Below, piece by piece: positions 60,116-64,000 of a stretch of DNA of 64,000 bases (within the stretch, counting starts at the first letter, position 1; every line of letters starts with the position of its first letter). Source of the stretch: Arthrobacter sp. SLBN-122 (lineage in GTDB: Bacteria; Actinomycetota; Actinomycetes; Actinomycetales; Micrococcaceae); NCBI RefSeq assembly GCF_006715165.1, contig NZ_VFMS01000001.1, positions 3,844,001-3,908,000 on the forward strand. The letters run 5' to 3'. The notes under the pieces are model-generated. The model did not search any database. It was not told the DNA's origin and worked only from the letters and a program-made list of their open reading frames with translations. Made by a program: the position numbers and the translations under genes.

Positions 60116-60202
60116 GCGCGATGCAGCAGCGCTGCGTCGCGGAGGAGGACGCGCCCAACTTTCTTCTGTCACTGCCGCTGTCCTTTGGGATATGCTCCTG
60201 AA

Positions 60203-63200
60203 ATGGCACCGCGAAGTTTTCTTCAATGGCCGGTCGTCCGTCAGTTGACCACGGGCGACCTACTGGGGCGCGGGCCGTCTGTGACCTCGCCCCGCACGCA
60301 GGCAATCGCTCCACGGACGGCCACCGCAGACCGCGTGGTGCAAAGTGTGTGCCCGTATTGTGCTGTTGGATGCGGGCAGCGGGTTTACGTCAAAGACGAA
60401 AAAGTCATCCAGATCGAGGGAGATCCGGATTCACCCATTTCCCGCGGTCGTCTGTGCCCCAAGGGCTCTGCCAGTGAGCAGTTGGTCAATTCTCCGGGCC
60501 GGCAAACAAAAGTGCTTTACCGTGCACCGCGTTCCACTGAGTGGGAACATCTGGACCTGGCTACGGCAGTTGAGATGGTGGCGGACCGCTTCATCGAAAC
60601 CCGCCGCAGGACGTGGCAGCAGGAAGATGACCAAGGCAGGCTTCTCCGCCGCACCATGGGCATAGCCTCGTTGGGCGGCGCCACCCTGGACAACGAAGAA
60701 AACTACCTGATCAAGAAACTCTTCACAGCTGCAGGGGCGGTGCAGACCGAGAACCAGGCCCGCATATGACACTCCGCAACGGTTCCCAGTTTGGGAGCCT
60801 CGTTTGGACGCGGTGGTGCAACGCAATCACTGCAGGACATGGCTAACGCTGACTGCATCATCATTCAGGGTTCCAACATGGCCGAGTGCCACCCGGTGGG
60901 GTACCAGTGGGTGGCGGAAGCGAAGGCCCGTGGTGCGAAGGTTATCCACATCGATCCGCGGTTCACGCGCACGTCGGCGGTTTCGGATAAGCACATTCCC
61001 ATCCGTGCAGGTTCTGATGTTGTGCTTCTGGGCGCCCTCATTAACTACGTGATCAGCAACGACCTCTGGTTTAAGGAGTACGTCGGCGCGTACACCAACG
61101 CAGCCACACTGGTTCACGAGGACTACCGCGATGCCGAGGACCTGGGCGGCCTGTTCTCCGGTTTCGATCCGGAGAAGCGGGCGTACGATACGTCGTCGTG
61201 GTCTTATGCAGAACAAGGGGAGGGAAGCATTGACGACCCCGGGCCCGGCTCCGAACACGGCGAGAATGCTACGGCCCGTGCTGCCGGCCATGCCTACGGC
61301 AGCGGCGGCCCGCCCTTGGAGCACGCGGAAGTGCAGCGTGACGATACCCTGCAGGACCCCCGGACGGTCTTCCAGATCGTAAAGCGGCACTACGCCCGCT
61401 ACACCGCGGAGATGGTCAGGGACATGTGCGGTATCGACGTCGCTGACTTCGAGTACCTGGCCCGTGCCATTACGGAAAACTCAGGACGCGACCGGACCAC
61501 CTGTTTCGCCTACGCTGTCGGCTGGACGCAGCACTCCCTGGGAGCCCAGTTCATTCGGGCCGCAGCCATCCTGCAGCTTCTGCTCGGAAATATGGGACGC
61601 CCTGGCGGCGGAATTATGGCCCTGCGCGGCCATGCCAGTATCCAGGGTTCCACCGACATCCCCACCCTGTTCAACCTGCTGCCCGGATACCTGCCGATGC
61701 CCAGTGCCGGCCGCCATGACAGCCTTGACGAATACCTGGAAGCTGTGGGGTCGAAACAGCAGAAGGGCTACTGGGCTGATGCCGACGCCTACACCATCAG
61801 CCTGCTCAAGGCCTGGTGGGGCGACGCCGCGAACGAGGACAACGATTGGGCCTACGACTACCTGCCCAGGCTCACCGGTGCCCACGGTACCTACGAGACC
61901 GTCATGGGCATGCTCGAGGACGAAGTGGAGGGCTACTTCCTGCTCGGGCAGAACCCTGCCGTGGGCTCTGCCCACGGCCGCATGCAACGGCTGGGCATGT
62001 CGCATTTGAAGTGGCTCGTGGTGCGCGACCTGAATCTCATCGAGTCGGCAACGTGGTGGAAGGACGGTCCGGAAATCGAATCCGGCGAGCTGCGCACCGA
62101 GGACATCGAAACTGAGGTGTTCTTCCTGCCGGCAGCAACCCACGTGGAAAAAGCCGGCTCGTTCACGCAAACCCAGCGGCTGCTGCAGTGGCGGCACCAG
62201 GCGGTGGCACCACCGGGGGAGTGCCAAAGCGAACTGCAGTTCTTCTTCGAGCTGGGCCAACGGATCCGGGAGAAGCTGGCCGATTCACAGGACGAGCGCG
62301 ACCGTCCGCTGCTGGACCTCACGTGGGACTATCCCGTGGACGAACACGGAGATCCGGATGCGGAGGCGGTGCTTGCCGAGATCAACGGCCGTCACCTGGC
62401 GGGCCTGGAGGCCGGAAAGCCCCTCTCCGCATATACCGAACTCCGGGCCGACGGTTCCACATCGGCCGGCTGCTGGATCTACACCGGGGTGTACGCCGAC
62501 GGCTTCAACCACGCCGCAAACCGCAAGCCGGGCCAGGAACAGGGGCCGGCGGCGTCGGAATGGGGCTGGGCATGGCCGGCCAACCGCAGGATCCTCTACA
62601 ACCGGGCGTCAGCCGACCCCGCGGGTAAACCCTGGAGCGAACGGAAGAAGTACATCTGGTGGGACCAGGAGCAGGGTAAATGGATCGGGGACGACGTGCC
62701 CGACTTCCCGCTGGAACGGGCACCAGGCAGCCACCCGGACCCCTCCGTTGGCGGGGCAGCTGCCCTTAGCGGTGACGATCCCTTCATCATGCAGGCGGAC
62801 GGCAAGGGCTGGCTGTTCGCGCCGAAGGGACTCATGGACGGACCCCTTCCCACCCACTACGAGGCCCAGGAATCGCCGGTGGCCAACGCGCTGTACCCGC
62901 AGCAGCAGAGCCCGGCGCGGCTGGTGTTCCCCCGCGCCGATAACCTCAGTGCGCCCAGCGCCGGCAGCCCTGGCGCAGATGTATACCCATACGTCTTCAC
63001 CACCTACCGCCTCACCGAGCACCACACGGCGGGCGGGATGAGCCGCTGGCTGCCGTACCTGTCGGAGCTGCAGCCGGAGATGTTCTGTGAGGTCTCGCCC
63101 GAACTGGCCGCTGAGCGTGGACTTGAGCCCTACGGGTGGGCCACCATCATTTCACCCCGATCCGCTATCGAGGCGAAGGTGCTTGTCACCGACCGGGTGA

Positions 63201-63517
63201 GGCCCCTGGCCGTCGGCGGGCACACGGTGCATCAGATCGGGCTGCCTTACCACTGGGGTGTCGGCAGCAATGCCGTGGTCAGCGGTGACGCGGCCAATGA
63301 TCTGCTGGGTGTGACGCTGGATCCCAACGTCCAGATCCAGGAATCCAAGGTGGCCTCCTGCGACATCCGGCCGGGCCGCCGGCCCCGCGGAGAGGAACTG
63401 CTTGCCTTGGTTGCCGAGTACCAGACGCGCGCCGGACTGACCACCGAGACCGGTAACCTGGCCGTCACCGATCAGCCCGGCAGTATTCCGGGAACCGACC
63501 CGACATTGGAGGACTAG
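60203..63517 (+). CDS. Formate dehydrogenase alpha subunit, selenocysteine-containing (UGA at 60767-60769)
   Basis: 1104 residues when the in-frame TGA at 60767 is read as selenocysteine (position 189). The frame on both sides is one protein: before it [4Fe-4S] ligands CPYCAVGCG and CPKGSA; after it FdnG-like sequence (NQARI-Sec-HSATVPSLGASFGRGG). This is the exact spot where FdnG/FdhF-type enzymes carry Sec or Cys coordinating the molybdenum. A SECIS-like hairpin follows at 60781-60799. Molybdopterin-binding domains follow to the C-terminus. It oxidises formate to CO2 with electrons passed to the Fe-S subunit encoded next. ATG 60203 is chosen; TTG 60185 is an alternative. No clear twin-arginine signal. 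Confidence 0.9.
60781..60799 (+). promoter_or_regulatory. Bacterial SECIS-like hairpin for UGA recoding
   Basis: GGTTCCC (60781-60787), loop AGTTT (60788-60792), GGGAGCC (60793-60799): seven base pairs including one G-U. The loop begins 18 nucleotides after the UGA, inside the 16-37 window of bacterial SECIS elements, and contains GU in the apex as SelB-binding loops do. Confidence 0.75.
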
Positions 63518-64000
63518 ATGGGCCAGTTGTCCGGACCGACCGACCCTACCGCCGATGCCCACTGGGAGCACAACCACCCGCGCAAGGGGTTCTTCACCGA
63601 CACCTCAATCTGCATCGGCTGCAAGGCCTGTGAGGTTGCCTGCAAGGAGTGGAACCACAACCCGCAGGACGGCAACCTGGAACTGCTCGGCTCCTCCTAC
63701 GACAACACCGGCTCCCTGGGGGCCAGCACCTGGCGGCATGTGGCGTTCATTGAACAGGGCCAGGAACGCATCGAGGAGGCGCGGGAATCAGGACGCGCCC
63801 TGGTCAGCCTGGGCATGCCGCGGATCGGTCCGCCCCAGGCGGCGCCTGCCGGGACCGATTTTGCGGACGCGGACACCACACCCCCGGACACGGCAGACTT
63901 CCGGTGGCTGATGTCCTCTGATGTCTGCAAGCATTGCACGCACGCCGGATGCCTGGACGTCTGCCCCACCGGAGCGCTGTTCCGCACCGAATTCGGCACC
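63518..64000 (+). CDS. Formate dehydrogenase iron-sulfur (beta) subunit, N-terminal part
   Basis: Starts at ATG 63518, just after the alpha-subunit stop, and runs off the window at residue 161. Ferredoxin-type ligands CIGCKACEVACKEW (CxxCxxCxxxC) near residues 31-44 and CKHCTHAGCLDVCPTGAL at 139-156 mark the four-cluster FdhB/HybA-type electron-transfer subunit. An acidic Pro/Thr-rich insertion lies at about 108-125. It carries electrons from the alpha subunit to a membrane cytochrome or other acceptor encoded beyond the window. Confidence 0.9.
   Translation, partial: MGQLSGPTDPTADAHWEHNHPRKGFFTDTSICIGCKACEVACKEWNHNPQDGNLELLGSSYDNTGSLGASTWRHVAFIEQGQERIEEARESGRALVSLGMPRIGPPQAAPAGTDFADADTTPPDTADFRWLMSSDVCKHCTHAGCLDVCPTGALFRTEFGT

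Follow-up and report, generated by a model that had tools for sequence, protein, structure and literature searches.

The window, a 64,000-nucleotide stretch of DNA from Arthrobacter sp. SLBN-122, a soil-type actinobacterium, covers bases 3844001–3908000 of a 4.47-Mb single-contig genome. Near its end it carries a gene for the alpha subunit of a formate dehydrogenase (FDH) with one in-frame UGA, followed by a gene for an iron-sulfur beta subunit and, beyond the window, by one for an NrfD-type membrane subunit. Genes for the selenocysteine (Sec) machinery, namely selD, a tRNA-Sec with anticodon UCA, selA and selB, are grouped 1.6–6 kb past the window end. The features are listed below; coordinates beyond 64000 are window-equivalent, and hairpin positions are numbered with the base after the UGA as +1.

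60203..63517, + strand: FDH alpha subunit of 1104 residues, Sec being residue 189; putative start ATG 60203, stop TAG; translated with TGA = U
60767..60769, + strand: UGA predicted to be read as Sec (residue 189); opposite the X of 1kqf_A and 1h0h_A; TGA or TGC/TGT in relatives
60781..60799, + strand: putative SECIS hairpin GGUUCCCAGUUUGGGAGCC (+12 to +30 after the UGA); minimum free energy (MFE) −11.6 kcal/mol; covariation; not kept in 12 Cys homologues
63518..64000 and on to 64525 (L010:7519-8526), + strand: FDH beta (iron-sulfur) subunit; 4Fe-4S Pfam families; starts directly after the alpha stop
65627-66652, reverse strand: selD; AIRS domains and the gene order of an annotated relative
66698-66792: tRNA-Sec; 73.5 bits (gathering score 47); anticodon UCA
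66817-68160: selA; SelA match of 331.5 bits
68164-69960: selB; TIGR00475 match of 280.4 bits (cut-off 242.25); SelB-wing_3 also matches

The translated alpha subunit matches the curated actinobacterial formate dehydrogenase family NF041513 (formate_DH_Act) over its full length at 1968.6 bits (cut-off 1400), the match beginning at residue 6, and TIGR01553 at 935.7 bits (cut-off 814.2). No difference from NF041513 was seen, and the matches above the cut-off of that family include TGA and Cys copies alike. In addition, the subunit contains the Pfam domains Molybdop_Fe4S4 (PF04879), Molybdopterin (PF00384) and Molydop_binding (PF01568). Two solved enzymes, E. coli FdnG (1kqf) and 1h0h, match it by sequence. 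With FdnG, from E. coli formate dehydrogenase N, the homology covers two long segments and the Sec positions coincide; in an FdnG-like E. coli gene (L253), a TGA and a stretch with an AGU-loop hairpin likewise occupy the corresponding positions. The NrfD-like membrane subunit counts as a difference from the E. coli FdnG system. FdnG carries a twin-arginine signal; reading the N-terminus of the alpha subunit by eye, we saw no twin-arginine motif.

TGA 60767-60769 is the sole in-frame stop in the frame 60203-63517. An earlier sequence-only reading had proposed that the frame runs unchanged through this codon into a segment matching FdnG around its active-site Sec. Both points were borne out: the translation has NQARI before the codon and HSATVPSLGASFGRGG after it, and in the alignment residue 189 faces the X that is printed at the Sec of 1kqf and 1h0h. 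The same reading had named two observations that would count against it, a normal stop in aligned homologues and a sequencing error at the codon; neither is borne out. Among the family loci, 77 of 78 were readable (L096, whose FDH is cut by a contig end, is without the site); the codon is TGA in 65 of the 77, own copy counted, and TGC in the other 12. Furthermore, a scan of named genomes gave at least 593 matches, of which the best 80 carry TGA at this codon; the later loci L212, L238, L239 and L242 yielded no site. The expectation that automated annotation would split the gene is correct for plain ORF calling, with two ORFs, 60185-60769 and 60791-63517, under the standard code, but not for the one close relative examined, in which a single 3,333-nt CDS spans the TGA.

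The sequence-only reading had also supposed a Sec-decoding machinery, and a genome lacking sel genes would have spoken against it. The full set of selA, selB, selD and tRNA-Sec (selC) was found in the same genome, just beyond the window, and the supposition therefore holds. These four genes are what defines the bacterial Sec-decoding trait, SelD being assigned here through its AIRS domains and the gene order of a relative. The Pfam family SelB-wing_2 (PF09106) has no match in the genome; the identity of SelB is nevertheless firm because TIGR00475 and SelB-wing_3 both match. FdhD is encoded elsewhere in the genome (219.4 bits).

Across the 245 family genomes searched, own included, SelA is present in 62 of the 65 genomes with the TGA form. 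The remaining three, G021, G148 and G167, have their FDH close to the end of a contig or on a short one. G125 is the only genome with SelA but no readable TGA, and a contig end cuts its FDH. The gap between FDH and SelA is 3.6–15.1 kb, with a median of 3.7 kb (56 measured of the 62 genomes with both). Molybdoenzyme matches that contain one TGA (G165 and G104) were considered as further selenoproteins and rejected: the TGA lies a few residues into the match, before the Fe-S motif starts, and these stops are taken as lying upstream of genes that look like other molybdoenzymes. In the group f18, FDH matches have two stops if they reach profile position 1052 or beyond and one stop if they end at 1050-1051. 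We read the second stop as the normal terminator, overrun by the match, because the stop count follows the match end (in coordinates, not in sequence); exceptions outside f18 are G348, G369 and G385, with two stops and a match ending at 1051, and G513:C184, with three TGA.

Downstream of the UGA, positions +12 to +19 can pair with +23 to +30, giving 8 pairs and a 3-nt loop, or 7 pairs and a 5-nt loop from +19 to +23. The stem thus opens with the 12th nucleotide, and 18 nucleotides precede the 5-nt loop, just as the sequence-only reading had placed them. That reading had further called the hairpin stable and SECIS-like, a description that fails on energy alone and stands on comparison across relatives. 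The MFE of the 19 nt is −11.6 kcal/mol, which from the single sequence is not significant: z is −1.46 for a 54-nt stretch, and synonymous resampling gives a fold at least as good in 290 of 5000 cases. A covariance model of the hairpin gave a single match in the genome at E ≤ 10, at 63.6 bits, with 150 of 4303 first-look candidates scored and the site itself in the set from which the model was built; since the model is FDH-specific and scored only those 150 candidates, SECIS of other types may occur in the genome.

The significance of the hairpin rests on comparison among relatives rather than on energy, and there the sequence evidence is convincing. Over 40 distinct family sites, 97.8% of cells are paired, compared with 94.5% after shuffling (reached by 0 of 500 shuffles), and 13 cells are changed on both sides, compared with 2.4 (0 of 500). 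In the same 40 sites, neither the number of double-change pairs (2; as high in 275 of 500 shuffles) nor that of further pair types (5; as high in 500 of 500) is in excess. Structures slid along the family set pair 21.9–66.3% of cells, slide −1 having 9 double-change cells. The Val stem codon is GTT in 65 of 65 family TGA sites and has the lowest entropy among 67 degenerate columns around the site. In synonymous conservation the stem codons for Pro, Gly and Thr come 3rd, 6th and 9th, and that for Leu only 32nd.

Covariation emerges across the phylum. It was counted on distinct 36-mers only, as named loci and other genomes overlap; 16 of the 114 distinct sites (one of them from E. coli) fall outside the VP[SG]L type, leaving 98 actinobacterial sites. 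Two stem pairs covary over three Watson-Crick types: +15/+27 is UA in 60, CG in 25, GC in 7, UG in 5 and UU in 1, and +18/+24 is CG in 85, GC in 7 and UA in 6. The covarying changes are synonymous because these positions are the third positions of the Val, Gly, Pro and Leu codons; accordingly, the Val and Gly codons combine as GTT-GGA (60), GTC-GGG (25), GTG-GGC (7), GTT-GGG (5) and GTT-GGT (1), and the Pro and Leu codons as CCC-YTG (85), CCG-CTC (7) and CCT-YTA (6). The outermost pair, +12/+30, is unpaired in 19 of the 98 sites, and the 19-nt stem is weaker than −7.5 kcal/mol in 6, the weakest being −4.0. In FDH homologues of distant phylum members (L233-L237 and L241) the same codon is TGA, but the peptide reads VAAL or VAGL and the sequence downstream of the UGA is not the same; their SECIS, if any, must therefore differ.

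The hairpin agrees with all four criteria of a bacterial SECIS model given in a legend of PMC13188914, which we applied criterion by criterion. For an upper stem of 4–16 bp with an apical loop of 3–9 nt, the window has 8 bp with a 3-nt loop or 7 bp with a 5-nt loop. The distance from UGA to apical loop, 16–37 nt in the model, is 18 nt for the 5-nt loop or 19 nt for the 3-nt loop. A G is expected in the first two loop positions; the loop is AGUUU, and all 98 distinct VP[SG]L-type sites have G at +20. The MFE limit of −7.5 kcal/mol is reached by the window and by 92 of the 98 sites.

For the E. coli SECIS, U17, G23 and U24 are described, with U17 standing out of the stem (PMC8659212). The loop bases G23 and U24 have their equivalents in +20 G and +21 U, present in all 98 VP[SG]L-type sites (the 16 others uncounted). 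By counting, the equivalent of U17 is +14 (17 in our numbering if the UGA is 1–3), which is U in 98 of 98 sites and is position 2 of the fixed Val codon; the base opposite is A (64 sites), G (30) or U (4). Unlike U17, which is reported out of the stem in that source, the +14 U of the window faces G and is able to pair. The family set had suggested the +15 U of GTT as an E. coli-type bulged U; this candidate was ruled out, as +15/+27 is a true pair across the phylum.

Homologues with TGC in place of TGA occur in 12 family genomes, 11 of them in one genus (g7), and these 12 loci served as the control for the hairpin, L183 and L184 being left out. In the Cys homologues 70.0% of hairpin cells are paired, with no excess over shuffles, the stem codons differ, and −7.5 kcal/mol is reached by 1 of 12, compared with the 92 of 98 distinct TGA sites. 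The control is imperfect because the peptide differs too, at two residues (Pro to Ala/Ser and Ser/Gly to Ala/Gly). Of these twelve genomes, seven carry the TGA form as well (L019-L030 versus L049-L055), and a Cys and a Sec FDH in one genome could possibly be a selenium-dependent pair; in the five Cys-only genomes, SelA is found in none. The phylum listing has 16 TGC rows, of which L111 and L113 are read as chance matches outside FDH, leaving 14 Cys loci plus one with TGT (L240). In a FastTree phylogeny of 133 proteins rooted on E. coli, the 14 Cys forms cluster together (support 94) inside the Sec forms; this nesting, which depends on the root as the tree has one distant outgroup, suggests that the Cys forms descend from one old Sec-to-Cys change.

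These comparisons bear on how the UGA is read. A sequencing error or a real stop, leaving a pseudogene or two separate genes, would account for the two ORFs seen under the standard code, but it is barely conceivable given how regularly relatives have TGA at this codon (65 of 77 family loci and the best 80 of at least 593 named matches), the otherwise open frame, the sel set and the covarying hairpin. Readthrough without SelB, by Trp insertion or near-cognate suppression, would make the hairpin a mere consequence of the coded VPSLGA peptide. That peptide is indeed strongly conserved, and the 290 of 5000 synonymous resamples that fold as well or better fit such a view; the compensating synonymous stem changes over 98 sites, however, do not, nor do the 12 Cys homologues without a kept hairpin (with the difference in peptide noted above), the presence of SelA in 62 of 65 TGA genomes versus 0 of 5 Cys-only genomes, and the Sec of the solved homologues 1kqf and 1h0h. 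We regard SelB-free readthrough as very improbable.

The analysis itself shows an otherwise open frame, homology to known enzymes, where residue 189 lies, a hairpin that is conserved and covaries, and a sel set in the same genome. On this basis the gene almost certainly encodes a Sec-containing molybdopterin-type formate dehydrogenase of the FdnG kind, its in-frame UGA being read by the bacterial Sec machinery. The initial observation is confirmed and its interpretation well supported, and the finding is an ordinary one. By analogy with what is established for these families, we infer expression, Sec insertion, Mo binding and the electron route. SelD would make selenophosphate, which SelA would use to turn Ser-tRNA-Sec into Sec-tRNA-Sec; SelB would bind the hairpin 60781-60799 and bring Sec-tRNA-Sec(UCA) to UGA 60767-60769. 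The selenol of Sec189 would then bind Mo at the active site, and electrons would pass through the Fe-S clusters of the alpha and beta subunits to the NrfD-type membrane subunit. In an organism that is not one of the usual models, the locus places a firmly supported selenoprotein and its decoding kit within ~10 kb. Its relatives offer natural controls, with Cys forms that have not kept the hairpin and some genomes that hold both forms, and together with the Sec loci these controls make actinobacterial SECIS rules readable from sequence.

Actinobacteria with a Sec-FDH next to sel genes have been described before, and the locus belongs to a known kind. As published descriptions have it, a UGA-containing fdnG is clustered with sel genes in Corynebacterium aurimucosum (PMC2830990), and an FDH with an internal UGA is clustered with sel genes in Actinomycetospora chiangmaiensis (PMC7176365), arrangements that resemble the one here. 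The latter source places selD outside the FDH1 cluster and reports that selenite nearly abolished formate accumulation in Actinomycetospora. One survey lists the Sec trait in Arthrobacter and describes FDH and sel genes lying close together (PMC5029168), and plasmid-borne Sec-FDH/sel clusters are likewise in print, fdoGHI and selABCD being placed on the megaplasmid pSymA (PMC8124441). PMC1088965 and PMC1273633 are also cited as prior literature, as is PMC4513850, for a general statement only. The less familiar points are only two: the straight SECIS stem with a loosely paired +14 U, and a copy on a conjugative plasmid.

This plasmid is pYA7-1a (NZ_CP110115.1), which was typed as conjugative (MOBP, MPF_T) and comes from Arthrobacter sp. 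YA7-1. The copy on it is complete (L210:12001-21874), with FDH, FeS and NrfD genes, selD, tRNA-Sec, selA and selB in the same order as here, fdh-FeS-nrfD-selD(reverse)-selC-selA-selB, and its alpha subunit is 90.7% identical; it differs in lying on a plasmid of conjugative type, whereas the island here is chromosomal. A Tn3-family transposase and a recombinase follow its selB, and a site-specific integrase lies upstream.

The chromosomal island might itself have arrived recently as a mobile cassette instead of being a trait inherited in the genus, a question of origin that is compatible with the Sec reading. In favour are the patchy distribution of SelA (6 of 18 own-genus genomes, own included), the plasmid copy near a Tn3 transposase and a site-specific integrase, a 2016 survey that lists Sec-trait transfers into Arthrobacter (PMC5029168), and the GC content of the sel region, 68–70% compared with 62–65% outside the island. 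Against this, no mobile gene was noticed beside the chromosomal copy, where flanking ORFs were only listed, and the patchiness also fits repeated loss; we hold recent acquisition to be possible but somewhat doubtful. An unlikely extension is that the FDH-sel island acts as a self-contained genetic-code cassette that can be transferred and that conjugative plasmids still spread, with a straight SECIS stem, a loosely paired +14 U and a co-evolved SelB. It might then be orthogonal to the E. coli SelB/SECIS pair, because a fully paired stem would be read by a SelB that has co-evolved with it. A literature search on Sec or tRNASec with conjugative plasmids returned an archaeal genetic-tools review, which does not imply that the subject is absent from print.

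The GC figures refer to L010:9628-13961 for the sel region and to 2-kb bins outside the island. A linear plasmid of Streptomyces anthocyanicus (NZ_CP109276.1) carries selD, selA, a SelB-like gene and tRNA-Sec (L212:7774-12115); the incomplete gene table of this 19-kb stretch has no formate dehydrogenase, and no FDH UGA site was found there. Another complete copy of the island lies on a Tsukamurella plasmid typed as non-mobilizable.
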